Source: Thermoguttaceae bacterium
GTDB lineage: Bacteria > Planctomycetota > Planctomycetia > Pirellulales > Thermoguttaceae
Direction of reading: 5' to 3'
NCBI GenBank assembly: GCA_025060325.1
Contig: JANXBW010000004.1
Coordinates: 1 to 64,000, forward strand
DNA length: 64,000 nt
Positions 49,088 to 64,000 of this stretch are shown here, piece by piece. The first letter of the stretch is position 1, and each line of letters opens with the position of its first letter. Position numbers and translations under genes: made by a program. The notes under the pieces are model-generated. The model ran no database searches. It was not told the DNA's origin and was given only the letters and a program-made list of their open reading frames with translations.

Positions 49088-50839
49088 GTGAGCGAAGTTG
49101 AAACTCTCGTCACGACTCTCGTTCAATCGGGCCTTTGCACGCAAGCGGAGGTAGAAGTTTCGCTGCGGGCACTTCAAACCCGCTCCGGGTCGCCGACTGC
49201 GGACAGCTTGCTGTCGCAACTGGTTGTGGATCGGAAACTCACTCCCTTTCAAGTGCGAGCCATTTCCCAGGGCAAGATCGACTCGCTTGTGCTGGGGAAT
49301 TACGTGATCTTAGACAAATTGGGCGAAGGAGGTATGGGGCAGGTGTACAAGGCCCGGCATCGGCGGATGGGACGAATTGTCGCTTTGAAGGTCCTGCCCC
49401 CTTGGGCCACCGATAGCCCTGCCGCTGTCCAGCGATTCCAGCGGGAGGTAGAAGCCGCCGCTAAGCTCGTCCATCCCAATGTGGTCACCGCCTATGATGC
49501 CAACGAAGCAAACAACGTTCACTTCCTTGTCATGGAATTTGTGGACGGCCAGGACCTTGCGTCGCTTGTTGATAAGTCGGGCCCTCTCTCGGTGGCCCAA
49601 GCAGTAGATTTTATTTTGCAGGCGGCCAGGGGCCTCCAGTATGCACACGCCCAGGGTATCGTCCACCGAGACATTAAACCCTCCAATTTGCTGCTAAGCC
49701 GCGAAGGTGTGGTAAAAATCCTCGATCTCGGGCTAGTCCGCTTCGAACATGCCCCGAGCGAAGGAGAAACCTCTCCGCCCGATGGTCTTACGAAAACGGG
49801 TCAAATCATGGGCACTGTTGACTTTATGGCGCCCGAGCAATCCATCGATGCCAAGCGAGCGGACCATCGGGCCGATATCTACAGCCTCGGGTGTACCCTC
49901 TACTACTTGTTGACAGGAAAGCCCGTGTATCCCGGCGAGACACTTGTGGAAAAAATTCTCGCCCACCGACAAAAGCCCGTGCCATCGCTTCAGTCCGAAC
50001 GGCCCGATGTGCCACCTGCGCTTGATGCAATTTTTAAGAAGATGGTAGCTAAGAGGCCGGAAAGCCGATATCAGTCGATGGCCGAGGTGATTCGCGACCT
50101 TGAGCGGCTTGCCGGGGGCGCATCCATGCGGGCTGGCCAACCGCAGGCGGTTCTCCCCAGCCGAGCGCCCACAACAGGAGAAGAGGAGACGATCATTGGT
50201 TCAGCGCCGTCAACTGTTGGACAAAAGGCTCCCTCACTAGCCCAGACTGTTTCCCTGCCACCAAGCTCATCGCAAGTAACTGGGTCTACGCGACTGGCCC
50301 ACCCGAGGACGACCCCAACTCTACCGCCCGGGGGAGGCAAGAGTCGACTGGCGGTCTCCGGAGAGATGCAGCACAAGTGGCAGGAGACAGTTAAAGCGGT
50401 CGATGCCGACTATCGCCGTCGCCACGGAATCGGGTTCTTCAACGCTCTTCGAAAGTCCCTAGGCAAGGCAGTCAACTGGGTGGGAGTACTTGTCGTTTTG
50501 GGCATCCTTGGCGGATTTGGCTACGTAGGCTGGCTGGGTTTCCAAAACGCCTCCACTATTGAGCGAAACCGAACGCAAATTCTCCAGGCTCTTAACGAGT
50601 TCCTGGGGAAGTTTAAAATGAATGTGCGGTCAGTAGAGTTTGACAACGCGTCCTATTTTCAGCCAGCACCAACGATTATTGACTTTTCCGCTCGCGTGTA
50701 TCGGGGTGCTGACGCCAAGGCACCGGCAGGAACAGTGACGGGCAAATTGGATCGACACATTGGTCAGCTCACCTTTGATATCGAGTTGGTCTCCGGCGAA
50801 CGACTTCCGGGCATAAAGGTCTCGGTCACTAATAAGTAG
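49088..50839 (+). CDS. Transmembrane serine/threonine protein kinase (PknB-like, planctomycete type)
   Basis: A 583-residue Hanks-type kinase. Residues 1-65 form the planctomycete leader with LLSQLVVDRKLTPFQVRAISQG. The kinase domain spans about 71-345: Gly loop GEGGMG (79-84), Lys101 in VALKVL, HRDIKPSNLLL (HRD 193-195), DLG 213-215 in place of DFG as common in bacteria, GTVDFMAPEQ (248-251), and DIYSLGCTLYYLLTG. A Pro/Thr/Ser-rich linker (~350-425) is a likely phosphorylation region. A membrane helix lies at 463-485, followed by an ~98-residue extracytoplasmic domain without PASTA repeats. Start: GTG 49088 has a GGGGAG ribosome site; GTG 49073 upstream lacks one. Confidence 0.93.
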   Translation: MSEVETLVTTLVQSGLCTQAEVEVSLRALQTRSGSPTADSLLSQLVVDRKLTPFQVRAISQGKIDSLVLGNYVILDKLGEGGMGQVYKARHRRMGRIVALKVLPPWATDSPAAVQRFQREVEAAAKLVHPNVVTAYDANEANNVHFLVMEFVDGQDLASLVDKSGPLSVAQAVDFILQAARGLQYAHAQGIVHRDIKPSNLLLSREGVVKILDLGLVRFEHAPSEGETSPPDGLTKTGQIMGTVDFMAPEQSIDAKRADHRADIYSLGCTLYYLLTGKPVYPGETLVEKILAHRQKPVPSLQSERPDVPPALDAIFKKMVAKRPESRYQSMAEVIRDLERLAGGASMRAGQPQAVLPSRAPTTGEEETIIGSAPSTVGQKAPSLAQTVSLPPSSSQVTGSTRLAHPRTTPTLPPGGGKSRLAVSGEMQHKWQETVKAVDADYRRRHGIGFFNALRKSLGKAVNWVGVLVVLGILGGFGYVGWLGFQNASTIERNRTQILQALNEFLGKFKMNVRSVEFDNASYFQPAPTIIDFSARVYRGADAKAPAGTVTGKLDRHIGQLTFDIELVSGERLPGIKVSVTNK

Positions 50840-51011
50840 CTTCCAGGTGGGTTGCGCTTTGCCAGAATCTTAGGTGCCTGCTTCGGACGTGGGACAGTTT
50901 CCGCGGGGGTAAGCGGGGGGAAGTTTCGGAGCAAGAGGCGTGCCCGTATTTCCCGGCCGACACCGGGGACCCATGGTTATTGCAGCTTTTCACCGAAGGC
51001 CGGGGTCGCAA

Positions 51012-54000
51012 TCATTTCGACATTTGTTGACGGACCAGTTCCTTAAGTTGACCAAAAGCGACTTTGCCGCTTCCCGTGATGGGTATTTCTGGAACTTGAC
51101 AAAAGCTATCGGGGGAGGGCATCCACAAGGCGGGAAGACCTTCCTGGGCAAGCCTCCGACAAATTTCCTCTGGTGGTTGGGCAAGGCCCGTATGCGCCAC
51201 GACGATGCGCTCGCCTTTCTTTTCGTCAGGAATTCCAAGCACCGCCAGCATTGGCCTTTCTTCGTCCTGAATGCCAAGCGCGACGCGAATTTTCTCCTCG
51301 ATAAACTCATGCGGCACCATTTCGCCGGCAATTTTTGAAAATCGGCTAATCCGACCGACAATGTAGATGAAACCATCCTCGTCGATTTTGGCCAAATCCC
51401 CTGTTGCATACCACCCATGGCGAAGCACCGCCGCGGTTTTCTCCGGCTCGTCCAAGTAGCCAAGCATGACGTTGGGGCCCTTGACGTGAAGCTCGCCCAC
51501 TTGGTTTGCGCCCAGGTCCTGGCCTGTTTCCGGATCAACAACTTTGGCTACGACACCTGGAAGTGGCCGGCCCACCGATCCCTCCCGGAGCCCAGGCTGA
51601 AACTTTGTCACCTGGCGGCTGGGGGGAATATTCGTGCACACCACCGGGGAAAGCTCCGTTGTGCCGTAACCTTCCACCGGCTTGACACCGAACTTTTGGG
51701 CAAACTGCTGGGCAAGCTCGGGCGGAAGTTTCTCTGCCCCTGTAATGAGGACGTCCACTGTGGCAAAGTCCTCCGGTTCACAACGCCGAACATAAGACCG
51801 AAGAAAAGTGGGCGTGCTTAGGAAGATAGTGGCCCGGTGCTTCCGGCACATTTCCCCCACCACGCGAGGCTCAAGGGGGTTGGGATGGTAGACCACCTTG
51901 GGCAAAAGCATGAGTGCGGTCCACATCGTCACCGTATAGCCAAACGAGTGAAAGAATGGCAGGACCCCCAGCATGACATCCTCACGACGAATCTGTAGCA
52001 CATCACAGAAGCTAAGCACATTGGACCCGATGTTCCGATGGCTGAGCATCACCCCCTTAGGCTGTCCCGTTGACCCCGATGTAAAGATGATCGTCAGAAC
52101 ATCATCGGGCCTTATTTTTGTTAACCCGAGCCACCTTTCTACTACCCAAATGGGTAGCACCTGTGCATAAAGAAAAGCAAGCAATTTGTCCACGAGGCGA
52201 ATTTGACCCGGGATGTCCTCCAGAATCACGTAGGGAGCATCAAGCTTGAAAGGAAATCGCTCTAAGAAGCGACGACTTGTGATGACATGACCAATTTTCG
52301 CTTTGCGTATGCAGAGATTTAGGATCGACTCCGACAAGGTGTAATTGAGGTTGACAGCAATCCGCCGGTCTAGGGCAAGGGCAGCGTTGGAAACAACAGA
52401 CGCCACCGACGGCGGAAGCATCACGGCCACCGCTTTTTCGTCCGCGCCAAGAATGCGGCGGAGATATCGGCGAAGGAGAAAGGCTCGGAGAAGGACACCA
52501 TATCCGCTGAGTTCGGCACCGAGCGAGTCGGCACATTTCTGCCCTTTGCCTACTTGCCGAAGGGCACGAAGCATTCGCCGCGCGGGAATAAGTTGACGAA
52601 GATCTGGCTCGAGCATAGTCTGCAGTCCTAATTCCTCCACAGCCCGACGCAGAAGAAGCGGCTCCACAGAATAAGGTAGCGGCTTGCCGAAGCGGACGAC
52701 GACCTCTCGCCGCTGACGCAAGTTCGGCCATTTCCAGAAGAATCGTCCCCCCGCATAACTAAAGATACTCCCCCACAGCCCACCGAGAAACACCGGGACA
52801 ATAGGCACACCGGCTCCTTTAGCGAGGGCCTGGTAACCGCGCTGAAAGCCCTGGATTTGGCCCGTGCGACTGAGACCGCCTTCCGGAAAAACGCACACTA
52901 CTTCACCATCGCGAAGGGCTTTTTGCGCCGCCCGCACGGCCCGGAGCACACTGTTACTGCCCGGCTCGATTTGGATGACGCCAAACTCCTTGGCTAGCCG
53001 GGTAAAGATTCCTCCGGGGATAAATCGCGGATCGGCGACGAACCGTATCGGCCGCGGGCACGCAAGGCTCAAAAAGATCCAGTCCACCCAGGTCACGTGA
53101 TTCGGTGTCAGAAGCACGCCTCCACTCCGAGGAACCCACTGTGCCCCCTCCACGCGAAGGCGATACCTCAAGAAGACAAGGAAACGAGCCAATACCCGGA
53201 GGAAAGGTATTGGCAAAGCGACAACAAGCGTCCCGAAAACTGGCAGCATCACCAGCGCCATAAAACCAAACACTTGTCGAGCGGAAAGGCCAAGGCCTGC
53301 TGTGAGCAGCCCGTAAACCGCCGACATCGAGATCATGAATGAATACGAAACGAAATTGTTGGCCGCCATAACTCGTCCACGGGAGTCGGCTGGGCTCTGG
53401 GCTTGGAGAAAAGCCATCAAAGGAATGTCGTACAAAGCGGCGGTCACGCCCAGGAGGAAAAGTCCCACACTTGCCCACACATAAGCAACGGAAAGAGGAT
53501 GCCCGATCCCCTGGGGCACCACCGAAACACCGAGTGCCATGAGGATAATCCCTAAAGCCCCCCAGGGGACCAGTCCCAACTCAATCTTGCCCGGTGACCA
53601 CAGCCCGGCAAAAAGCGCTCCTGTGGCAATGCCCACGTTCAAAGCGGCAAGCAGATAGCCCACAAAATGTTGCTCGGTGACAAGCTCCGGTCGCGCAAGT
53701 TTGTCGATCGCCGGTTGGCTCATTGCCCCTAGGCCCCAGAAAAGTCCACTCGCCAAAGCTGCCGCAAGAAGCGCGCGACTTCGCCAAAGGAAAACTAAGT
53801 CTTTTCCCACTTGATAGAAAGGATTAATAGGGAAGCGAGCGTGGGGATTGGCCGGCCGCAAGGGCCCGAGGAATAGCGAGCTTATGAGTCCCACGCTGGC
53901 CACCCCCAGCAAGGCAGCCGCGGAGATCCACAGGTTCAACTGCCCCGGCAAAAGGTTCTCCCACCCCGGCACCACCCGTTTGGCTGCCTCGGAAGTGATG

Positions 54001-55019
54001 TGCTGCTCCAGCTGCTCCCGATCCCTAGGCCAAAAGTAAACAGCTACGACCGACGGGACCTGCGTCAAAAGCGACGGGGCACGTTGGATCTCGGAAGCCA
54101 CATGGGGTAGTTCGTTTACGGGGGCAGGAGTTTGGGTGCCATCCGGCCCAAACGTGCTTCTTGCCACCAGGATAACAGGAACACCGCCAGCCACGGAGAA
54201 GAGAGATTTCAGGTCCTGGACCAAATTTCGGCCGGAGGCGGCTTCATCCCAAATAACAAGCTCGGGTGCTCCCCTTCGTACCTGGTCAATGGCCTCGGCG
54301 ATATTCTCTGCCTGCTTTAGCCGGAAACCTTGTCTACGAATTTCTCCTGCCAAGAGGCCGGGAGAAAGCAAGTTACTTTTGTCCTCGCTTGAGCCCGTTG
54401 TCACCAGAAGCAGGCTCGGCGGGGTGGTGGCGGAATATAGGTAGCCGCCAAGGGCAGCCCCTAAAATGCAGGCCACCATGGTGGTCATTCCAATCCACCC
54501 GTTGGCCGTGGCGATGTGCGCGGACGGAACAATTTCCGGAATGCTTCCATACTTCGATGGGCTGAAAAACGCTGTCTGGGCGCCCATGAGAAAGAGGACC
54601 ACGAACATCATCCACACCTGCCCCATCCAAATGGTAACGATGCCCATCGCCATAATGAGAAGTTCCGCCGCCTTACACCAAATGATTACGCCCCGTTTAC
54701 TGTGTTTATCCGTGATAAAGCCGGCCCAACCGGCTAAGAGCAAAAAGGGTGCAAGAAAACAAACCGCGCCTAACCACAGGGCGGTATCCTGCCCGATAAG
54801 CTCTTTGCCAATGGGCACGATGAGCCAGCGAAACATGTTGTCATTTAGAGCGACCGTAAACTGCGTGACAAGTAAAGCGATAAAGCTGCGGTTCCAAAGC
54901 GATTGGGAAGGGACGGAAGAACTTGGGCTGTGAGGGACGGGCGCAGTGGCCTGGCTCATCCAGAGGGATCCTAACGACCGGTCGTAAACACCAAAAGCAT
55001 GCCAATTTCTGCTTGTCAC
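51012..55019 (-). CDS. Three-domain fusion: LplT-like MFS transporter + PlsC acyltransferase + AasC-type acyl-ACP/CoA synthetase, with inserted domain
   Basis: A 1335-residue membrane protein for lysophospholipid import and re-acylation. Residues ~45-615 are a 12-helix MFS transporter of the LplT type. Between helices 5 and 6, residues ~198-355, sits an extra alpha/beta domain (see findings). Residues ~620-800 are a PlsC acyltransferase with NHVTWVD (HX4D, His641/Asp646) and FPEGGLSRTG (711-720). From about 840 there is an AMP-forming acyl-adenylating domain with IIFTSGSTGQPKGVML (977-992), GYGTTELSPV, YATGDLAKIDEDG and ITGSGKVAF. E. coli uses separate LplT and Aas. The start GTG 55019 overlaps the apbE stop as GTGA; ATG 54959 (MSQATAPV) is an alternative. 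Confidence 0.9.
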   Translation of the reverse strand: MTSRNWHAFGVYDRSLGSLWMSQATAPVPHSPSSSVPSQSLWNRSFIALLVTQFTVALNDNMFRWLIVPIGKELIGQDTALWLGAVCFLAPFLLLAGWAGFITDKHSKRGVIIWCKAAELLIMAMGIVTIWMGQVWMMFVVLFLMGAQTAFFSPSKYGSIPEIVPSAHIATANGWIGMTTMVACILGAALGGYLYSATTPPSLLLVTTGSSEDKSNLLSPGLLAGEIRRQGFRLKQAENIAEAIDQVRRGAPELVIWDEAASGRNLVQDLKSLFSVAGGVPVILVARSTFGPDGTQTPAPVNELPHVASEIQRAPSLLTQVPSVVAVYFWPRDREQLEQHITSEAAKRVVPGWENLLPGQLNLWISAAALLGVASVGLISSLFLGPLRPANPHARFPINPFYQVGKDLVFLWRSRALLAAALASGLFWGLGAMSQPAIDKLARPELVTEQHFVGYLLAALNVGIATGALFAGLWSPGKIELGLVPWGALGIILMALGVSVVPQGIGHPLSVAYVWASVGLFLLGVTAALYDIPLMAFLQAQSPADSRGRVMAANNFVSYSFMISMSAVYGLLTAGLGLSARQVFGFMALVMLPVFGTLVVALPIPFLRVLARFLVFLRYRLRVEGAQWVPRSGGVLLTPNHVTWVDWIFLSLACPRPIRFVADPRFIPGGIFTRLAKEFGVIQIEPGSNSVLRAVRAAQKALRDGEVVCVFPEGGLSRTGQIQGFQRGYQALAKGAGVPIVPVFLGGLWGSIFSYAGGRFFWKWPNLRQRREVVVRFGKPLPYSVEPLLLRRAVEELGLQTMLEPDLRQLIPARRMLRALRQVGKGQKCADSLGAELSGYGVLLRAFLLRRYLRRILGADEKAVAVMLPPSVASVVSNAALALDRRIAVNLNYTLSESILNLCIRKAKIGHVITSRRFLERFPFKLDAPYVILEDIPGQIRLVDKLLAFLYAQVLPIWVVERWLGLTKIRPDDVLTIIFTSGSTGQPKGVMLSHRNIGSNVLSFCDVLQIRREDVMLGVLPFFHSFGYTVTMWTALMLLPKVVYHPNPLEPRVVGEMCRKHRATIFLSTPTFLRSYVRRCEPEDFATVDVLITGAEKLPPELAQQFAQKFGVKPVEGYGTTELSPVVCTNIPPSRQVTKFQPGLREGSVGRPLPGVVAKVVDPETGQDLGANQVGELHVKGPNVMLGYLDEPEKTAAVLRHGWYATGDLAKIDEDGFIYIVGRISRFSKIAGEMVPHEFIEEKIRVALGIQDEERPMLAVLGIPDEKKGERIVVAHTGLAQPPEEICRRLAQEGLPALWMPSPDSFCQVPEIPITGSGKVAFGQLKELVRQQMSK
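53955..54428 (-). other. Receiver-like domain inserted in MFS loop 5-6 of the fusion protein
   Basis: Residues ~198-355 of the 1335-residue fusion are absent from ordinary LplT. The first half reads like a CheY/REC fold: strand SLLLVTT, helix AGEIRRQG, strand FRLKQAEN, helix IAEAIDQVRRG, strand APELVIWDEA with Asp258 near the phospho-acceptor position, helix LVQDLKSLF, strand VPVILVARS. The acidic pair and the conserved Lys of true receivers are missing. The topology (N-in, loop after helix 5) predicts a non-cytoplasmic location. Assignment is inference. Confidence 0.45.
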
Positions 55020-56161
55020 TCATCGAGCGCGGCGGAAGCTTCGGGCCAGCTTCCTACCATGCGCCAGACGTAACCCCGCGGATTTTCAGCCGTTAAGGCG
55101 AAAATTGCGGCAACACCGCAGTTTCTTCGACAATAATCCTCGGCCCAATCTGGCCCTTGGATGAAGAAAGCTGTAGACAGCACATCAGCCCACGTCGCCG
55201 TTGGAGCCAACACGGTGACAGCGAGAACAGGATCGCCGACCGGGTGACCTGTTCGGGGGTCGATAATGTGGCTCAGTCGCTTGCCCTCGTGGCGGAAAAA
55301 CTGAAGTGCCGATCCGGAGGTTCCAATCGCGCCGGATTTGAGGCGAAGTACTCCTACACGAATTTCCGGCCGAAGGGGGTCACGTATACCCACCTCCCAA
55401 ATCCAGGAAGTTAAAGCTCCGCGCATTGGGCAAGGATCGCTGGGATTGCGTATGGCCTTCTGGTCCGATTGGGATTCTCCGGACCCGCAAGGCGGCGGCT
55501 CCTCCGGGACTGACATCAGGACGCTGCTATAGCCCCCGCTCACCAGGACACACTCGATCCCGAAACTCCGCAGAACACGAAGGGCCCGATCAAGGGCAAA
55601 GCCTTTGCCTATCCCACCCAAATTAAGTTCGGCGCCCACCTGCGAAAGGTAGACCGATCGGGACTGAGGCTCCAGAACTACTTTGTCTGATCCAACGGCC
55701 GAGAGGGCCTCGCGAATCTCATCGGGGGAGGGGATCTGCCTTGTTTTACGGGCAAAACCCCAAAGTCGCCAAAGCGGCCCGGAAGTGATATCAAATGCCC
55801 CGTCGGTCTCTCGGAAGGCCCGGAGTGATTCCGAAATAACCTCCCAAACCTCTTCCGAAACGGATACCGGTTGCACGCCCGCTTGCTGGTTAATGCAACT
55901 CACTTCGCTATCAGGCAGAAAATAGCTCAACTTCTTCTCTAAGTCCTGAACGACATCGAAGGCCGAAAGGACGGCATCTAAAGCCTGGGGATATATGCCT
56001 GCAGGAAGAATCACCTCGAATTGGGATCCCATAGCGGGCCGCGAATAGCGGAGGACAAATTTCGCAGAACCCTCCGCGGCTCTTCCGGGTTGTGAAACCG
56101 AAGCGGAGCTCGACTCGGGTATTAACCTGGCCTTTAAAAAATCGCGGCGGCTCTGCATCAT
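55016..56161 (-). CDS. apbE: FAD:protein FMN transferase (ApbE family)
   Basis: Mg-dependent enzyme that attaches FMN covalently to Thr/Ser of partner proteins such as NqrB/NqrC and RnfG. Family motifs: SRPAMGSQFEV (substrate/FAD entry), AFDVVQDLEKKLSYFLPDSEVSCINQQ, DGAFDITSGPLWRLWGFARK, NLGGIGKGFALDRA, LVSGGYSSV, GTSGSALQFF, LSHIIDPRTGHPV and VLAPTATWADVLSTAFFI. About 381 residues. The N-terminus MMQSRRDFLKA matches the twin-arginine consensus, but no hydrophobic stretch follows, so export is doubtful. The annotated ATG 56161 is preceded by GTG in frame; GGAGG is about 18 nt upstream. The stop overlaps the next gene as GTGA, so both are translated together; no Nqr/Rnf genes are near. Confidence 0.92.
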   Translation of the reverse strand: MMQSRRDFLKARLIPESSSASVSQPGRAAEGSAKFVLRYSRPAMGSQFEVILPAGIYPQALDAVLSAFDVVQDLEKKLSYFLPDSEVSCINQQAGVQPVSVSEEVWEVISESLRAFRETDGAFDITSGPLWRLWGFARKTRQIPSPDEIREALSAVGSDKVVLEPQSRSVYLSQVGAELNLGGIGKGFALDRALRVLRSFGIECVLVSGGYSSVLMSVPEEPPPCGSGESQSDQKAIRNPSDPCPMRGALTSWIWEVGIRDPLRPEIRVGVLRLKSGAIGTSGSALQFFRHEGKRLSHIIDPRTGHPVGDPVLAVTVLAPTATWADVLSTAFFIQGPDWAEDYCRRNCGVAAIFALTAENPRGYVWRMVGSWPEASAALDE

Positions 56162-57118
56162 CACATTCTGAGCGTATTACCTCCAACGCTAGCGATTCTT
56201 ATTCCCGCAAAGGCCTACTACCGCTATTGCCCTGGAGACCCCGGTTTGACCTTATCGGGCGCTAGCGGAGCTAAGCGCGAGTAGCTGAGCCGACAGAAGT
56301 CGAGTCCCAACCGGCAAGTGATCGCCGAAACAAACCTCCGGTCGAAAAAACAGTCAACCTTTCAGGCAGTTAGCGCGGAAGCCCAAACATCCCAATCTTC
56401 CAGGATACTTGGCTAGCTTTCCGGCCAAGCCTTACGGATTTTACGAACAAACTCATCGAACGAACAACCGAAGGGCAAGGGCATTACCTTCAGGCGTTGC
56501 GGCAAAAGAATGATCACATATCTGCTCTTGTCACCCTGCCCGACCCGCCGGCTGGTGGGCCCTTCCACGAGGGATTTGCGGTGGCGCAAGCTTAATCTCC
56601 AACTGCGGGAATCCGGTTCGGTGGGTGCAGCACCGAGTACGGGGGCATTTCCAGACTTCGAGTTGGTATTTCGGGTGTTGATCTCTCTACGGCCGGGAAT
56701 AGTGGGACAAATTAGGGTTATTTTTCCGGGCACGGCTCTTTTTTCTGGCTTCCGCCGGACCTGTCCAATTTCCCAGGTTTTGAGGCCCAAAACTTCCGCC
56801 GAGAAGAGCTTCGGAATTCGGGCGTCAGGATATGCCAGAACGCCGAACGACGCGAAAAGAGTTTGCTAAACGACGAGAACTTCACTTTGATGGGATAAAC
56901 CTGAACCGCAAACGCCCTTCGCAACGGTAAAATTTACTCAAGCGATAAACATTATACTCAATGCAGGACCAGAGTTCTTGGACAGGCCCCGTGCGGAAAC
57001 TTCGGTGAAGAACATCCCACCGAGTAAAGGAAGATTAGCTCTAGGAGTTTGTGCCCCCTCGAATCTCCCAGACCGCCTTCAGGCAGCCAGGCCAAGAGAG
57101 ATCGCTGATTGGGCATGA
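56162..57118. other. Intergenic region between apbE and repeat-protein gene
   Basis: About 950 bp. Only the weak open frame at 56413-56790 (listed separately) is noteworthy; no promoter, hairpin or repeat stood out. Confidence 0.4.
56413..56790 (-). CDS. Possible small hypothetical protein
   Basis: A 125-codon frame on the same strand as its neighbours. The first half is Arg/Pro/Ser-rich and unconvincing, but the last 35 residues (SRYVIILLPQRLKVMPLPFG, then FDEFVRKIRKAWPES) look like real protein ending in an amphipathic helix. No ribosome site is visible at the first start; an internal ATG gives a 23-residue peptide. It could also be the remnant of a larger gene. Confidence 0.25.
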   Translation of the reverse strand: MGLKTWEIGQVRRKPEKRAVPGKITLICPTIPGRREINTRNTNSKSGNAPVLGAAPTEPDSRSWRLSLRHRKSLVEGPTSRRVGQGDKSRYVIILLPQRLKVMPLPFGCSFDEFVRKIRKAWPES

Positions 57119-57682
57119 TTAACGGATCGTGACCGAGCCAGAAAGAGACTCCGTGACCCGCCAAGATTCCCCTCGCGGGCCGTAAATCCATCCGCCCCCC
57201 ACGATGGAAGGGGCAAAGCGATAAGTAACCCCTCCGGGTCCTGAGATCCATGCGCTTCCGGACAGCCCAAACGACACACGCCAGGACTCACCCCGGGGGC
57301 CGGAAATGTAAAGCCCAGTCAAGCCTTCACTTACCCGATAGGACCTTCCACCCGGGCCGGTAATCCAAGCCCCCGTTAAGCCCGGCGAAATACGCCAGGT
57401 TTCCCCACTAGGGCCAAAAACGTACCTCGATAATGGAAGACGCTCCGAGAAATCGGAAGATGGACGGGTCACCGAGCCGATGCGCAAGTCTCTGCTACGA
57501 TCGCTCAAAAGCGCGGTTATCCCGAATGGAAACTGAACATTTTGCTGCGGCTCCGCGGCAGCCAAAGGAGAAGCGGAAATAACAAGAAGAAAGACGGCAA
57601 GCCCCGCAACCACACCGTCGGCATAAATACTCCCGCAACCGTACTTCAGCACCAACCCTAAACGTGCCCGCCTTTTCCTCAT
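57119..57682 (-). CDS. Exported Gly-Pro tandem-repeat protein (five GPxGxxWR units)
   Basis: A 187-residue protein with a signal/anchor segment (residues ~22-43, VVAGLAVFLLVISASPLAAA). The last 98 residues are five head-to-tail repeats beginning at residues 90, 109, 128, 148 and 168 (lengths 19, 19, 20, 20, 20) with consensus GPxGxxWRVSxGLxGxWIS. Units 1, 3 and 5 have GE(T/S)WR; units 2 and 4 have GGxxYR, so the true period is a 39-residue Trp/Tyr pair. The repeats run to the stop codon. They most likely form a beta-rich solenoid or barrel. Start ATG 57682 is chosen because GAGGAG lies 7 nt upstream; an ATG 15 bp further upstream has no ribosome site. I do not recognise this repeat as any named family. 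Confidence 0.82.
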   Translation of the reverse strand: MRKRRARLGLVLKYGCGSIYADGVVAGLAVFLLVISASPLAAAEPQQNVQFPFGITALLSDRSRDLRIGSVTRPSSDFSERLPLSRYVFGPSGETWRISPGLTGAWITGPGGRSYRVSEGLTGLYISGPRGESWRVSFGLSGSAWISGPGGVTYRFAPSIVGGGWIYGPRGESWRVTESLSGSVTIR

Positions 57683-58146
57683 GACTTTTCTCCTCATATC
57701 CGAAGCCCCGGCTCCTAACCGACCGAACGGTTAAAAAGCACCTAAGGGGCGGCAACCCCTTCCGCGCAGTCGAAAACAGCTCGCTTTTGCGGGTGTCAAA
57801 GCTCCGCCCATATGATTGGCTGCGCTTATCCTACTAACCCCGGCCAACCACTCAATTGTAACGCGTGCGTGCTTTGTGGCCCAAAAAATCATGCCCCGAA
57901 CACTTAAGCATTTGCTACCATGAGGCGTTTTCGGTTCCTCCCTCGGGCGCTTCGGGGGCAGCTTTCCCTAAAGGAGAAGACCGCATAATCGGCAGGGAAG
58001 GTCAGGTTTAAAGCACCTTTGGGACGAGTGAAGCTTGATGGCATTGGTGGTGAGGCAACTCTTTCCGCCGCAATGCCATTCAAGCAGGAGGCTAAGTGAT
58101 TAGATAAGCTTCTATTTCAAAACGTGGAGCAGCGGAGTTTCCCACC
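57683..58146. other. Divergent intergenic region between repeat protein and unknown gene
   Basis: About 460 bp carrying upstream regions of both genes. A large hairpin (58034-58084) is listed separately. Shortly after it GGAGG is followed by a three-codon minimal frame GTG-ATT-AGA-TAA (58097-58108). No promoter could be assigned with confidence. Confidence 0.45.
58034..58084 (+). repeat. 13-bp hairpin with single bulge upstream of gene 58147
   Basis: CTTGATGGCATTG (58034-58046) pairs with CAATGCCAT-T-CAAG (58071-58084), all 13 positions Watson-Crick with one bulged T, across a 24-nt loop. No T tract follows, so it is not a terminator. It lies about 60-110 nt before the GTG start at 58147. 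Confidence 0.65.
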
Positions 58147-58608
58147 GTGACTGCTGCCTTTGACCTGGATCGTTTGCCGATAGCCCAGGCCCCGTCTAAC
58201 GACCGCGCCGTTGCTCCGGCGCAAGAGGCAGCGCGGCTTTTCCGGGCGATCTTTGGGCATAACCCGCCTGATGCGTTTACGAAGTGGTTTGTCTCCACGC
58301 CGACCTCGGTATTTCCGCCCTTTTCCGAAGAAATGTGGAGAAACTACTTCTGGGTGCTAACGCGGGTCAAGGATTTGGAGGCACTTGAATTTGCTTCCCG
58401 ACTTTTCGGGAGAAACCAGGTCCTTACGTACAAGTTGCGCCTAGCCATTTATTTGGCAGAATGCTGCCCTGGGTTCCGGCGATGGTTTGTCAATCGCGCC
58501 GACCTCCCGTTTTTGGTTGCCCTTGCCAAATTGGGTTTGGCCAAGTTGTACACGCTGTGGAAGTTGTTAAAAGGCCTCGTTTTACTCCTCCGTTACCATG
58601 GGCCTTAA
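58147..58608 (+). CDS. Hypothetical helical protein of unknown function
   Basis: A 153-residue protein starting at GTG, with GGAG upstream. It is mostly helical: APAQEAARLFRAIFGHNPPD, then FPPFSEEMWRNYFWVLTRVK, a LEALEFASRLFGRNQVLTYK helix, and a hydrophobic C-terminal helix LAKLGLAKLYTLWKLLKGLV that could be amphipathic membrane-associated. There is no signal peptide and no family I recognise. Composition (aromatic and Arg-rich helices) is protein-like, so it is probably real. It stands alone, divergent from the repeat protein and convergent with the enolase-family gene. Confidence 0.6.
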   Translation: MTAAFDLDRLPIAQAPSNDRAVAPAQEAARLFRAIFGHNPPDAFTKWFVSTPTSVFPPFSEEMWRNYFWVLTRVKDLEALEFASRLFGRNQVLTYKLRLAIYLAECCPGFRRWFVNRADLPFLVALAKLGLAKLYTLWKLLKGLVLLLRYHGP

Positions 58609-58747
58609 CCGGGACACTGGGCATGTTTGGTGCCGAAGACCGACTCTCACCGAAAGGAATCACTATACATTTTTCTGTGAATTAGTTATTCCCCGCGGGA
58701 TTCCGCCAGAGCGGCGGCGCCCCCGACCCTTGGTCTTGAACCCTTTT

Positions 58748-59947
58748 TCAAAAGAAAGCGACAGTTCGTTGATGAATTGTCCACCGCGCAAGTTGCGAGC
58801 GCTCGACAGTCACGCCGAGCCCCGGACCTTTTAACGCCGGTGCCCAGCCGCCCCAACCAAAGGTCAAGTTCTCGCGGGTAACCAATCGCCGAAAGAGAAA
58901 TCGGTCGTAGGAGCCTTCTACATACCGTGTTTGGCCAACTAGCGTGGCGAAATGCCTCCCCGCGGCTGACAGGATGCCGCTCTCCCCAGGGTGACATCCT
59001 AGCTGAAAGCCAATCCCATTGGAGTGGGCGTAGGCAGCCATTTCCAAACTGCGAAGTAGCCCTCCGCACTTAGATAGTCGAATGTTGATTAAGTCGCAGT
59101 AACCGCTGCTAATCGCCTGATGAAGATCTTCTTTTGTCACAATTGGCTCATCGAGCATGAGGGGGATGGCAAGTCGCGGCCGAATGTCCTTTAGCCGAGG
59201 CAGTTCCTCCACGGGAACTGGATCCTCAATGCAACTAATCCCGAGCGGTTTAAGCTTTTCGATAAATTCGGGCAATTCGTCCGCATGCCAGGCACCGTTG
59301 GCATCTAGGCGGATATCGACCCTTCTGCCCAGCCATTGGCGGAGCCGTCGCAGACGCCGTAACTCGCGCGCCTTGTCCTTTAGGAGCCCGACTTTGATCT
59401 TGCAGTGACGAAAGCCCCAAACACGGATAAACAAGGCTCTGATTGCCTCCGTAACTGGGTGGGCGCCCATGATTGTGGCTGAGTACTGCGCGGCCGAGCG
59501 CGGGTGGATGATACTTTGGGCTGGCGTAAACGCAGAGAGCCCTTGGGACACGGACTGGCCCCAAGAGCGCCCAAACGCATCGAGGATCGCTAGCTCAACT
59601 GCGCACCGCAGGGGATGATCAAACCCCTGGTTCTCCGTCCGCTCTGTCGGCAGCAACTTTAGGTTCTGGCAAAGGCTAAATACATCCGCCCAGCTACCGC
59701 ACGGCTTTGGCAGCCACTCCCCAACAGGTAGCGACCAAAAAAGTTGCCACAGCTGCTCCGCGGACGACCCCAATAGTCTTTTCCGCGGCACGCCCTCGCC
59801 CCAGCCTTCACTTCCGTCGGTAAGTTGACATCGGACAAAAATATTGTCCGAATACCGGTAGGACGCCGCTGCATGGCGAATACCATGCCTTAAAGGAAGG
59901 CGTGCCACGATTAGCGTTAATGTCACGATGCGTTGTGCGGTCGGCAT
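58748..59947 (-). CDS. Enolase-superfamily enzyme (muconate-lactonizing/mandelate-racemase-like)
   Basis: A 399-residue TIM-barrel enzyme of the MLE/dipeptide-epimerase/OSBS branch. Catalytic Lys pair region CKIKVG, metal ligands Asp in IRLDANGAW, Glu in CIEDPVPVEE and Asp in MLDEPIVTKED, and the opposite-face base Lys in NIRLSKCGG. The N-terminal capping domain includes SEGWGEGVPR. Abstracts an alpha-proton from a carboxylate substrate; cannot say which (dipeptide, muconate, succinylbenzoate). ATG 59947 has no strong ribosome site; a hairpin lies 23 bp upstream. Same strand as the SDR, GH3 and PanE-like genes. Confidence 0.85.
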   Translation of the reverse strand: MPTAQRIVTLTLIVARLPLRHGIRHAAASYRYSDNIFVRCQLTDGSEGWGEGVPRKRLLGSSAEQLWQLFWSLPVGEWLPKPCGSWADVFSLCQNLKLLPTERTENQGFDHPLRCAVELAILDAFGRSWGQSVSQGLSAFTPAQSIIHPRSAAQYSATIMGAHPVTEAIRALFIRVWGFRHCKIKVGLLKDKARELRRLRRLRQWLGRRVDIRLDANGAWHADELPEFIEKLKPLGISCIEDPVPVEELPRLKDIRPRLAIPLMLDEPIVTKEDLHQAISSGYCDLINIRLSKCGGLLRSLEMAAYAHSNGIGFQLGCHPGESGILSAAGRHFATLVGQTRYVEGSYDRFLFRRLVTRENLTFGWGGWAPALKGPGLGVTVERSQLARWTIHQRTVAFF

Positions 59948-59969
59948 GTGTAGTTAGGAATAATTTTCC

Positions 59970-59996
59970 CAATCATCAACACTCTCTCGATGATTG
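59970..59996 (-). promoter_or_regulatory. Inverted repeat upstream of enolase-superfamily gene
   Basis: CAATCATC (59970-59977) and GATGATTG (59989-59996) form a perfect 8-bp inverted repeat with an 11-nt centre, 23 bp before the start codon. It would suit an operator or a leader hairpin covering the ribosome-binding region. Confidence 0.45.
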
Positions 59997-60144
59997 TGCC
60001 TCTTTGCTTCAACGGCCGAATTACAGCTTGGCACCGGCCGGGATCTATTCTCCCTTAATGAGGGGTTAATGCTGGTGAAAGACCAACACTGCCCAGCGGG
60101 TTTCGATCAGTAGTTAAAATCGGATCTTAGGTCCCCGGGGCGGA

Positions 60145-61185
60145 TCACCGCACGGCGGCTTGTTTTTTGCGGAGTGCCTCTTGGGCTATCGGCAGATGCT
60201 TGGCTGCCCACTCGAGAGTTTCACGAATCCCTTCCTGAAAATCCACACGCGGCTGATAGCCGAGGACACTTTTTGCCTTTTGGATGGAAAAGTCGAGGTT
60301 GAGGGCCATAAATTTGATACGCGCACGAGTTAGTAGCGGTGGGGTTTTTCTCCTTACCAATCGTGCCCACCATTCCATCGGAACGACGGCGACCTTGGCT
60401 AGCCAAAGAGGTACCATCCCTGGGTGAGGGCAGCCGAAGAAATCGGCTATGGTGTTGATGTATTCTCGTCGCGTTACCAAACGTTCATCGCGAATATTGA
60501 ATGTCTCGCCCACTGCCTGAGGGTGGTCTATGGCAAGGAAAATTGCATCCACCAGATTACCAACGTAAGTGTTGTTGAGAACTTTCGAGCCGTCGCCAAT
60601 GAATTTCAGTCGCCCACTCAAAAGGTTTTCGATAACCCGGGGGATAGAGTGGCGCTCCCATGGCCCGTAGACAAAACCGGGGCGAAGGATCACGGCCGGA
60701 AAGCGGTAATGCTCCATATAGTGGCGAAGCAACATTTCCGCCTCGGCTTTGGTACGAGTGTAGCCATCAAGGCCTTGGAGGTCTGGCGGTACCGATTCGT
60801 CTGTACCGTAGTGATCGCGCCCCGGATAAACACCGAGGGTGCTTATATGGATAAAACGGCGCAGCGACGGCTCGCGAGCGCATGCAGAAATTAGATGTTC
60901 AAGCCCGACCACATTGATTCGGCGATATTCCTCGAGGGGCCCCCAGTCACCGATATGGGCGGCCGCGTGAACAACAACCTGCACATTCGCCACCGCAGGG
61001 GGTAATGTTCCTGGCTGAGCTAGATCGGCCGTGATCACCTCCACCGGAAGGCCCTGGAGAAGAGAGCGATCGCTCGTGGGGCGAACCATGGCCCGGATTC
61101 GGTAACCCTCGGCCAACCCACGCACAACCGTATGGTAACCAATCATGCCACTTGCGCCGGTTACAAGCATAAGCTCGCCGCGCAC
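60145..61185 (-). CDS. NAD(P)-dependent SDR epimerase/dehydratase/reductase (3beta-HSD-like)
   Basis: Extended short-chain dehydrogenase of 346 residues. Nucleotide motif LVTGASGMIGYHTV (TGxxGxxG), VVHAAAHIGDWGP, INVVGLEHLI, ISTLGVYPG and the catalytic YTRTK (Tyr-x3-Lys), then LRPGFVYGPWERHSIPRV. The latter, together with a C-terminal extension containing VPLWLAKVAVVPMEWW, suggests the 3beta-hydroxysteroid/OleD-type reductase or sugar-epimerase branch. GTG 61185 is the start: GAAGGAG lies 8 nt upstream; ATG 61170 is less well placed. Separated by about 200 bp from GH3 and enolase-type genes on the same strand. Confidence 0.87.
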   Translation of the reverse strand: MRGELMLVTGASGMIGYHTVVRGLAEGYRIRAMVRPTSDRSLLQGLPVEVITADLAQPGTLPPAVANVQVVVHAAAHIGDWGPLEEYRRINVVGLEHLISACAREPSLRRFIHISTLGVYPGRDHYGTDESVPPDLQGLDGYTRTKAEAEMLLRHYMEHYRFPAVILRPGFVYGPWERHSIPRVIENLLSGRLKFIGDGSKVLNNTYVGNLVDAIFLAIDHPQAVGETFNIRDERLVTRREYINTIADFFGCPHPGMVPLWLAKVAVVPMEWWARLVRRKTPPLLTRARIKFMALNLDFSIQKAKSVLGYQPRVDFQEGIRETLEWAAKHLPIAQEALRKKQAAVR

Positions 61186-61386
61186 CGGTCGGGCTCCTTC
61201 TTGTCAAGACTCAGATTGTGTGTGTTCGGCACTAGTTCGGATTTGCGGCCGGAAGGTTCCGCAAGTCGCAACCGGGAAGAAAGCCGGCGAATCTGTGCGG
61301 GGATTTAACCGATTTTCCTCGTGGTGGGTTCTTCACCGGCACCATTTTGGGCGCGCAAACACCGTCAAGCCCAAGGGGCTACCAAC

Positions 61387-63135
61387 TTATCGCCACCCCT
61401 CCGCTTGCAGGTTCAGCTGCGAGAGAACCAGATGATCCTCCAAATGATGATGAAGCTTCGTCTGACAGCCTTCTTGTCCGGCGGCGATCGTCGACTTAGT
61501 GACTCGGTCGATGAAGTCAAGATCGGCTACGAGGCAAGGGTGTTTATATTCCTCGAAGTTTCCCCGCTCCTGGGTGTGAAGTTGCCGCAGCCTGGCCCAC
61601 GTACCCGGAGGCACATACTGGACCGTTATCGGGTCAAGCCGATGGGTCTCCAGGCGATTTGCATACTCACAATTAAGCCGAGCCAATTGGGCGTTAACTG
61701 CTGCCGCTAGCTCAGCTTCTCTTCGCTCGGTCTGACCCGGCTCAAGCAAAAGCACATAGCGTGGACGATCGGCTATCGCCGGCGCTAAAGTGAAGGGCTG
61801 CGGGGGAATCCCTAACTGGCGGAAGGCCGTCTCTACTGCTTCGACCACTTGGCTCTCGCTAAGTTTTTCGCCAGTGAAATTTGCAAAGTGGGCGCCTTTG
61901 TTGAGAAATTCGATCAACGGGACATCGTCAAGGTACCCTGTGCAGCGGACCACGTCGCGAATGTCATAGCGGTAGAATCCAGAGGAGGTTGTTAGCAGGA
62001 TGTAGTAATCGCGGCCCACCTCCAACTCGTGAGCAAGAAGAACCGTGGGCTGCAGGGAAGTTCTTTCTTCGACGGGAATAAATTCGAAGAAATGATGGCA
62101 GTACTCCAAGATGCCGCTGCTTGAATGATCCTCATAAGGAACGGTCATATGACCTTCGCTAGCAGAAAGTCCGTGGTCGCGGATAGCCTGCTTGCCGTAG
62201 TATTTTTCAACAAGCGGCAAGAAGATTCGTACTGGGCCCCCGGTCCAGACGGCAATCACCGACAGCTCTGGCCAAGCGCGCGAAAGATCAAGCCGACCAA
62301 TTTGCTCAACAATTCTCTCCAATTGACGGGCACGCGCCGGGTCGCGTCGACGGAAATATGGGCGGAGTTTCTGCCGAATATTCCACGGGATGCTCAAATC
62401 TGCGCGAAGTGAACCGTTGTAAATGTCGCGGATAAGATGCTCAGCCTCTCTCTGGGCCAACCGAGCAAACTCGACAAGCGTGCTCGGATTGGCAGTGCCA
62501 ATTAACCCGATTCTCGGGCACGCTAGACCCAACCTCAAAGCGACGTAGTGTTTGGCATCGGCGGAGTGAATCTCCGTAACACATTGAGGAAGAGCGAACC
62601 GAAGGCGCGCAAGAAACGGAGCCGTGTGGCCCACGAGCCCACTGATAGCGCCGCAGGGAGTTCCCCCGGGGGTATAAAATTGCCGCCAATCACTCGCAAG
62701 CTTAAGAGTTTTCTTGTAAACTAAATCTTTGTGATCCCAGTAAAGCTTTACCCCCCACAGCTGCCAACCACGGCAATACTCTCGGAAAAAATGGTTGGTG
62801 ATGGGGATGTACTTTGGCTGACCAGTGGTCCCGGATGTGAGCGCAAACATAAGTACTTTCGTCCCGGGACCGTACATAGCGTCCCACTTGCCAGCTTTTA
62901 ACTTTTCGATCCAAGGCCGATAGTATTCGTAGTCGGTAATCGGCACCTGTTTGCGAAAATCACTCACGGTGCGAATGTGGGCAAATCCATGCGCTCGGCC
63001 AAATTCGCTACTTGCGTGCCGACGAACTTTGCGCAAAAGTACTTGTTCTTGATACCATCGCCCTCGACGAGCGTTGTTGACAAAAGCCCGAAAAGCTTGG
63101 TACTTCCAAAAAAGGTAGGCGTAGCGCTCCACCAT
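61387..63135 (-). CDS. GH3-family acyl-acid amido synthetase-like protein
   Basis: A 582-residue acyl-adenylating enzyme related to plant GH3 auxin/jasmonate conjugating enzymes. The ATP-binding motif is LTSGTTGQPKYIPITNHFF (residues ~109-127), followed by IAVWTGGPVRIFLPL, LSASEGHMTVPYED and a YYILLTTSSGFYRYDIRDVVRC segment (YR.DxG-like motif), then ANFTGEKLSESQVVEAV near the hinge. Bacterial homologues are of mostly unknown substrate; conjugation of an acyl acid to an amine/amino acid is the family reaction. AAGGAG sits 8 nt before ATG 63135. It starts 5 bp downstream of the PanE-like gene stop, so the two are surely co-transcribed. Confidence 0.9.
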   Translation of the reverse strand: MVERYAYLFWKYQAFRAFVNNARRGRWYQEQVLLRKVRRHASSEFGRAHGFAHIRTVSDFRKQVPITDYEYYRPWIEKLKAGKWDAMYGPGTKVLMFALTSGTTGQPKYIPITNHFFREYCRGWQLWGVKLYWDHKDLVYKKTLKLASDWRQFYTPGGTPCGAISGLVGHTAPFLARLRFALPQCVTEIHSADAKHYVALRLGLACPRIGLIGTANPSTLVEFARLAQREAEHLIRDIYNGSLRADLSIPWNIRQKLRPYFRRRDPARARQLERIVEQIGRLDLSRAWPELSVIAVWTGGPVRIFLPLVEKYYGKQAIRDHGLSASEGHMTVPYEDHSSSGILEYCHHFFEFIPVEERTSLQPTVLLAHELEVGRDYYILLTTSSGFYRYDIRDVVRCTGYLDDVPLIEFLNKGAHFANFTGEKLSESQVVEAVETAFRQLGIPPQPFTLAPAIADRPRYVLLLEPGQTERREAELAAAVNAQLARLNCEYANRLETHRLDPITVQYVPPGTWARLRQLHTQERGNFEEYKHPCLVADLDFIDRVTKSTIAAGQEGCQTKLHHHLEDHLVLSQLNLQAEGWR

Positions 63136-63139
63136 GGCC

Positions 63140-64000
63140 TTAACTCCTTTCCACGCCGATGGTGGTTGGTTCGAATCGCCTAACCTGCAAACGTTCCTTG
63201 AAGCGGTGAATTACTTCATCCCGGGCTAAAAAGGTGCGGGGGTTTTTTTGTTCCAACTCGTGCGTTAACTCCAGGACAAGCTCGTTAAGCGGGCACGGGG
63301 TTTGGTGTTCGCTACCTAATCTAACGATTTCTCCGTTTATAAAGTCGACCTCGGTCTTCTTCCCGGAGACCAAGTCCTGATAGAGCGAAAACACGATGGG
63401 CCGGCGGTTGAAACCAAAACGCATTAGGCCCCCGAGCAGCTGCCCGACTATGGGGAAGCCAAGAAGATGACAGATGGTACGAAAATGGCGGATTCCTGGT
63501 CGGCCCGGGATGGCACGATGGTGAATGCCCGCCGCCCGATAAACACGCTCGATTTCCCTAAAAAGCGGAATCGCCACCCAGCGCCGCCACGGATGATGAA
63601 GTAGACATTCGGTAATAAAGTTGGAGGCCGACAGGCACGATACGTAGCCCACCGCGTTGATGCCTAATTTAGTGTAACGTAATCCCTGAATTTCCCGTGT
63701 GTATTTAATGGGCATCCCCGTTTTACTGAGGATGGCGGCTGCTTTCCTAGCAGCGGCTTCGGCATCCGGGAACATGGGGCCCACTGCGGTCAGACCACCT
63801 AACTGGAGAGAGATATGTCCCGGAGCGGTGACGGCCACGTTTATTGTTGTTACAGCGGCCACGAGCTGCGAAGGAGGCAACCACCGCTGGAAGATTTGAT
63901 CGCAAATCCCATTTTGAATAACCACAACCGTTGCCTGGCGGATAAACGGAGCGGCTTGGCTTAGTGCCTCCTCGGTTCCGTGTGATTTGACGCAGAAAAG
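63140..64000 (-). CDS. Ketopantoate reductase (PanE/ApbA)-like protein, 5' part outside window
   Basis: The C-terminal ~286 residues of a 2-dehydropantoate 2-reductase-like enzyme. The frame is open to the window end, and upstream residues (FCVKSHGTEEAL..AAPFI then VVVIQNGICDQIF) match the PanE Rossmann domain (VK-t..a, QNG), so a GTG at 63925 is not the true start. Downstream: ITTINVAVTAPGHISLQLGG-like 'g.T..gA....G.v..' region, and the C-terminal helical domain with Lys in RYTKLGINAV, the conserved KLxxNa element, and SLYQDLVSGKKTEVDFINGEIVRLG that matches the family S.x.QD...G..TEidyinG motif. Pantothenate or a related alpha-keto acid reduction; GH3 follows in the same operon. Confidence 0.85.
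   Translation of the reverse strand, partial: LFCVKSHGTEEALSQAAPFIRQATVVVIQNGICDQIFQRWLPPSQLVAAVTTINVAVTAPGHISLQLGGLTAVGPMFPDAEAAARKAAAILSKTGMPIKYTREIQGLRYTKLGINAVGYVSCLSASNFITECLLHHPWRRWVAIPLFREIERVYRAAGIHHRAIPGRPGIRHFRTICHLLGFPIVGQLLGGLMRFGFNRRPIVFSLYQDLVSGKKTEVDFINGEIVRLGSEHQTPCPLNELVLELTHELEQKNPRTFLARDEVIHRFKERLQVRRFEPTTIGVERS

Follow-up and report, generated by a model that had tools for sequence, protein, structure and literature searches.

A short gene in a planctomycete genome encodes a protein that ends in five Gly-Pro repeats and matches no named family. What might such a protein look like when folded, and what does it belong to? We asked these questions of one gene in a 64,000-nucleotide stretch (the window) of contig JANXBW010000004.1 from a Thermoguttaceae bacterium. 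The original prediction, made from the DNA letters alone, had described a secreted protein with tandem units that carry Trp and Tyr in strict alternation, and had suggested one β-hairpin per unit and an extracellular structural or adhesive role.

The repeat protein, its ortholog and the Trp/Tyr alternation

The gene and the parts of its product are as follows.

57119..57697, minus strand: repeat protein gene, 192 residues, or 187 residues if the start is Met6 at 57682 (open reading frame and translation)
57554..57682, minus strand: putative signal sequence, Met6 to Ala48 (by eye from sequence; the ortholog has an N-terminus of like kind)
57482..57532, minus strand: FPFGI...ALLSDRSRDLR stretch, residues 56-72 (from alignment; FPFGI also in the ortholog; predicted helix at 60-72)
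57416..57427, minus strand: RYVF strand, preceding the first GPxG turn (strand at E91-94 in the model; RPVF in the ortholog)
57359..57415, minus strand: unit 1, Trp type, GPSGETWRISPGLTGAWIT (translation)
57302..57358, minus strand: unit 2, Tyr type, GPGGRSYRVSEGLTGLYIS (translation)
57242..57301, minus strand: unit 3, Trp type, GPRGESWRVSFGLSGSAWIS (translation)
57182..57241, minus strand: unit 4, Tyr type, GPGGVTYRFAPSIVGGGWIY (translation)
57122..57181, minus strand: unit 5, Trp type, GPRGESWRVTESLSGSVTIR (translation; stop codon at 57119-57121)

Met6 may be the true start, because an AGGAG lies 7-8 bases upstream of the second ATG (57682). Read by eye, the N-terminus has a basic start, a hydrophobic stretch (VVAGLAVFLLVISA) and PLAAA ahead of EP, and it lacks a lipobox Cys. 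Cleavage is expected before Glu49, and the protein is apparently exported, as had been predicted. A linker of about 45 residues, which includes QFPFGITALLSDR, separates the signal sequence from the repeats.

The five units run in tandem to the stop codon, exactly where the original prediction had placed them. They are 19, 19, 20, 20 and 20 residues long, and these 98 residues together with the stop codon make up 57119-57415. As the RYVF strand lies before the first GPxG turn, the first hairpin begins outside this interval. The repetition exceeds what shuffling produces. In the mature protein the best ungapped self-match (offset 19) scored 113, compared with a maximum of 64 in 500 shuffles; in the ortholog the self-match at offset 40 scored 72, compared with a maximum of 49, and again none of 500 residue shuffles reached it. 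TRF reported no array at a score of at least 40 within the gene. Thus, the unit copies have diverged at the DNA level.

We found one clear ortholog, in the related genome G001, an uncultured Thermoguttaceae MAG (contig CALKER010000006.1; recorded as L004 and L017). This protein has 189 residues and five units in the order W-Y-W-Y-W, and its repeat region is identical to that of the window protein at 60 of 102 residues (59%). The two genomes share gene order and orientation across an enolase-superfamily enzyme, a small unknown protein, the repeat protein and ApbE. The neighbouring proteins are 59%, 57% and 55% identical, and the repeat gene diverges at about the same pace. Identities at the three codon positions are 0.667, 0.716 and 0.392, and the NG86 method gave a dN of 0.42 and a dS of 1.49, the latter being high and near saturation. 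These values indicate that the repeat gene is under constraint. We do not claim an operon with ApbE, the enolase-superfamily gene and the 153-residue unknown, since these genes stand 0.45-0.95 kb apart and are not all in one orientation. A promoter scan found none, and the one terminator-like site, which lies upstream, is below the shuffle mean. The 153-residue neighbour (58147-58608, plus strand) has no Pfam match and is conserved across the three genus members that the search covered. Elsewhere in the window, 51012-55019 (minus strand) encodes a protein of 1335 residues in which an MFS-type transporter is fused to an acyltransferase and to an AMP-binding ligase domain.

A third genome of the genus, G002, contains a degraded relative (L005) with a long N-terminal part and about four units, which carry W, L, W and H at the alternating position. 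We rejected it as a syntenic ortholog; its contig differs from the one that holds the G002 homologue of the 153-residue neighbour.

The motifs that define the two unit types are present as described, GE(T/S)WR in units 1, 3 and 5 and GGxxYR in units 2 and 4, and the W-Y-W-Y-W order is retained at all five positions in the ortholog. Thus, the alternation is old. It had been taken to imply a 39-residue superunit that arose by duplication of a two-unit block, and this part of the interpretation did not hold. With the units aligned by hand, the parity contrast in the window protein was 0.078, a value matched by 36 of 120 unit orders. It vanished when the three columns around Trp/Tyr were left out (0.516 for same-parity units and 0.517 for the others). 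The ortholog had a contrast of 0.091, matched by 12 of 120 unit orders, and values of 0.391 versus 0.350 without the Trp/Tyr columns. Between the orthologs, units at the same position were on average 0.588 identical, compared with 0.440 for units at different positions. The five-unit array therefore predates the split of the two species. Judged from these sequences, a duplicated two-unit block is not supported, and the Trp/Tyr alternation is not good evidence for one.

Distribution and wider repeat groups

As the original prediction had supposed, the protein falls into no named sequence family. Searches with the protein and with its profile returned nothing significant from Pfam, NCBIfam, PHROGs, PADLOC or the PDB sequences. 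When three family members (set A1) were compared with all Pfam models at E <= 10, the only row was Phage_186_Fil (E 0.72); the MORN, choline-binding and Rhs/YD models gave no match at this threshold. The best PHROGs row was a tail fibre protein (E 0.11), and Rfam had no match in 50000-64000.

Relatives were few. With the window protein as query (E 0.01), five of 60 relatives' genomes matched: its own, G001, G002 and, weakly, G006 and G024. The G006 match is interrupted by two internal stops. A profile of the window protein family (A2) matched four of 119 family genomes (its own, G001, G002 and, weakly, G024) and four of 392 phylum genomes. Two of the latter loci were treated as chance: L015 shares its frame with a 367-residue membrane protein that resembles RnfD, and the L016 frame, interrupted by two stops, lies next to a 504-residue protein that resembles FliF. 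A first scan of a genome contig collection returned nothing and a second returned a single locus, the G001 ortholog; no relative was found among viral contigs, phages and plasmids. By sequence, this is a narrow, genus-level family.

Following up the weak G024 match, we came upon short secreted proteins built of 20-residue units of the form GPGGQxWSSRPNIFGGFDI. From four such loci we built a second profile (A3, GPxGxxW), leaving out L022, which had no repeat frame under our filter, and L023, which is of another type. L039, which has only the signal sequence in common with A3, was also left out. The A2 and A3 profiles aligned with a score of 44.4. This score exceeded all of 200 shuffles in which columns were permuted freely (at most 22.5) and all of 200 that preserved the 20-residue period (at most 30.8), and the reversed profile gave 9.5. 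Reciprocal searches agreed at modest E values: the L007 protein found the G001 ortholog at 9.1e-5, and A3 found the window gene at 7.7e-4 and the G001 gene at 0.0015, with nothing in G002. Among 397 genomes of the class, 11 had an A3 match at E 1e-4; at that threshold the window's genome is absent.

The window protein and the GPxGxxW proteins (L007/L018, L019, L020 and L021) have in common a signal sequence, 20-residue units, the GPxG turn, a Gln/Glu, a Trp six residues past the first Gly, and GG. They differ in that the GPxGxxW proteins follow the consensus given above, have no Arg after the Trp, are 94-139 residues long and begin their repeats directly after the signal sequence. The window protein places a 45-residue linker with the FPFGI helix before its repeats, and it has GLxG where the others have NIFGG. 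Thus, we regard it as a relative, rather than a member, of this subgroup. One of the GPxGxxW proteins, L019 (1492-1881), does show a near-exact two-unit alternation, of TDWS and YDVT units, which is the type of superunit that had been proposed for the window protein; its same-parity identity is 0.95 and otherwise 0.57, over three units only. No such alternation was seen in L041 (0.71 for same parity, 0.69 otherwise), L020 (0.53, 0.53) or L007 (0.68, 0.77).

A3 in turn aligns to the NIFGGQ(D/N)Y repeat protein L023 (score 60.5, reached by none of 100 shuffles). A direct comparison of A2 with L023 was weak (15.5, reached by six of 100 shuffles), and the window family is tied by sequence to the NIFGGQ(D/N)Y proteins through A3 only. 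A broad NIFGG profile (A7) was built from nine loci, leaving out L044 and L047, for which our filter gave no frame. With at most 10 candidates scored per genome it matched one of 392 phylum genomes, so either the group is sporadic or the search was insensitive. Eleven GPxGxxW- or NIFGG-type proteins had no Pfam match over the curated cut-off; their best rows below it were MDN1_4th (1.1e-4) and Nucleoporin_FG (0.0011). Nine proteins (L041, L042, L043, L045, L046, L048, L049, L020 and L023), all from planctomycete genomes, apparently secreted and without a Pfam match over the cut-off, consist of tandem N[IV]FGG[QYF][DN] repeats, each some 15-22 residues long. Our literature searches and family scans suggest that the window protein belongs to a scattered, unnamed and apparently undescribed group of repeat proteins.

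Predicted structure and candidate folds

We modelled the window protein with AlphaFold from a three-sequence alignment and used the best of five models (mean pLDDT 66.6; the other four, 54.4 to 38.2). Residues 91-192 had block means of 82-91 and formed 11 predicted strands, with one hairpin per unit. The model contained a single short helix, at residues 60-72, with block values of 70 and 68. The ortholog was modelled separately, cut to its mature part and again from three sequences. It again gave 11 strands, which coincided unit by unit with those of the window protein (block means 60-85), and four of its five models had means of 60.3-66.4; no residue reached a pLDDT of 90, and the helix region was under 50. 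Thus, the predicted hairpin in each unit recurs at the same places in two models.

A confident model could itself be an artefact of internal repetition, in a low-complexity secreted protein that has no fixed fold. Of the 102 residues in the repeat region, 37 are Gly or Ser, the repeats of two relatives weakly resemble the nucleoporin FG model, and the model ensemble of the window protein is uneven. Against this stand the same strands in the two models, the codon-level constraint on the gene and the conservation of units by position between the orthologs (0.588 as opposed to 0.440). We think an unfolded protein quite improbable.

Which fold the hairpins would form is less clear, as all structural scores were low. 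Foldseek found no PDB match at E <= 0.001 for either model. Its best rows were hairpin sheets of Rhs and teneurin proteins (E 0.013 for the window model and 0.021 for the ortholog model). A search of BFVD also gave nothing at E <= 0.001; a 132-residue phage protein aligned over 88 columns with an rmsd of 2.4 (E 0.023). In VIA-align, Z 8 is the mark of trust and a lower value may mean only a common arrangement; every Z given here is below 8. The first row for both models was a designed protein, 9lx4 (Z 6.0 and 7.2). The chain 1zxu ranked tenth for the window model (Z 5.3, rmsd 3.4 A, 95 residues aligned) and second for the ortholog model, where it was the top natural chain (Z 6.8, rmsd 3.3 A, 102 residues aligned). 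These alignments begin at model residues 51 and 6, that is, ahead of the helix. Biotin-dependent carboxylase chains took ranks 2-9 for the window model (Z 5.4-5.9) and ranks 7-8 for the ortholog model (Z 5.1).

The Foldseek rows raise the prospect that the units form an open or spiralling hairpin sheet, of the Rhs/teneurin YD-repeat or MORN type, that would serve as a structural or adhesive element at the surface, as the original prediction proposed. The YD-repeat sheets share hairpin repeats with the window protein, and Rhs or teneurin rows also appeared in VIA-align at Z 5.1 to 5.9. The superpositions are poor, with an rmsd mostly of 5-8 A over 80-106 residues compared with 3.3-3.4 A over 95-102 residues for 1zxu, and the Rhs, YD and MORN models of Pfam have no match at E <= 10. 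The number of units bears on this question in both directions. Counted by eye, four distant A3 relatives have four to six N[IV]xGG units, a variation that an open array would easily accommodate, whereas both members of the ortholog pair have five. We consider an open sheet rather unlikely.

Lectins occur low in the Foldseek list (for example 4uso, E 0.24), and a secreted protein with short, aromatic-rich repeats might be a five-bladed propeller or a trefoil-like lectin that binds sugars outside the cell. The rows are weak, with an rmsd of at least 10 A for the three that we saw (4uso, 6t96 and 9kl2), and a blade of four strands needs more than a two-strand unit of 19-20 residues. Such a fold seems very unlikely indeed.

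The models and their closest shapes point, at low scores, to a small closed barrel over an extended solenoid. With Z values of 5.3 and 6.8, the structural match to 1ZXU, a putative phospholipid scramblase of Arabidopsis, is of middling quality. According to the available text of Durairaj et al. (2023; PMC10584680), 1ZXU is a solved barrel structure that was compared with the β-flower fold, in which four, five or six hairpins close as a shallow barrel that in many members encloses a hydrophobic helix. The ten-strand β-flower described there consists of five hairpins, which the five units of the window protein fit. The same text gives the tubby barrel (clan CL0395) as twelve long strands around a helix, without a short tandem repeat; the window protein has no sequence match to it.

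The window protein shares with β-flower proteins its short hairpin repeats, 1ZXU as a structural neighbour and, if the barrel closes, five hairpins. Where a β-flower barrel encloses a helix, that helix is C-terminal, whereas the predicted helix of the window protein is N-terminal to the repeats. By sequence we found no connection. None of the three A1 members matched PF21784, PF21785 or PF21786 at E <= 10, and in sets of 60, 149 and 149 genomes these models matched three, three and four genomes, never that of the window; G001 and G002, both in the 60-genome set, had no match. An hhalign comparison of A2 with three Bflower-type sequences scored 14.6, which 13 of 200 shuffles reached, and comparisons with Bflower_2 and another Bflower protein were at or under shuffle level. 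The semiconserved hairpin tip of β-flowers, [DNEQ]XXG in the available text (PMC10584680), was read in none of the five units of the window protein, where the tip is GPxG, in one of five in the ortholog (DSSG) and in one of four in L005 (NPDG). As both the Pfam matches and the tip are missing, we do not file the protein as a β-flower member. We propose only that it probably follows the β-flower plan.

In sum, what the original prediction observed in the sequence was borne out, and its interpretation was borne out in part: predicted hairpins, apparent export and the lack of a named family stand, and the block duplication does not.

A model for the repeat protein

Our preferred reading, which we put forward tentatively and at somewhat less than an even chance, is that the predicted models describe an exported envelope protein with a small, closed, fivefold hairpin barrel that resembles a β-flower. 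In this model, the C-terminal 102 residues would fold into five successive β-hairpins, one for each unit of 19-20 residues. Within a unit, a WIS-like first strand would turn tightly at GPxG into a second strand, ExWRV or xxYRV, after which a Gly-rich GLxG segment would connect to the following unit. After export, the hairpins may close into a shallow fivefold barrel. The Trp/Tyr and Val residues of the second strands would then face the inside of the barrel and the Arg residues the outside. The conserved FPFGI..ALL helix could fill the barrel, as in β-flower and tubby-like proteins, or it could sit at a membrane or ligand.

The predicted shape suggests a periplasmic or surface module of the envelope that binds a hydrophobic ligand or a membrane; this role is a guess based on the tubby-like barrels. 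We saw no enzymatic signature in the protein and do not expect it to be an enzyme.

We also offer a broader hypothesis, which we regard as possible and doubtful. Planctomycetes may possess undescribed secreted barrels in which every unit of 15-22 residues folds as a single hairpin and the symmetry is set by whether there are four, five or six units, so that an architecture like that of the β-flower would be reached from unrelated repeats. The window protein would represent a fivefold branch in which Trp and Tyr alternate.

If these proposals are true, the protein would be a repeat-built, fold-level relative of the β-flower and tubby-like barrels that is invisible to current sequence models. 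It would also offer a small natural system for learning how repeat number sets barrel symmetry. The searches also indicate that secreted repeat proteins form an unnamed group within this phylum, whose envelope is poorly understood.
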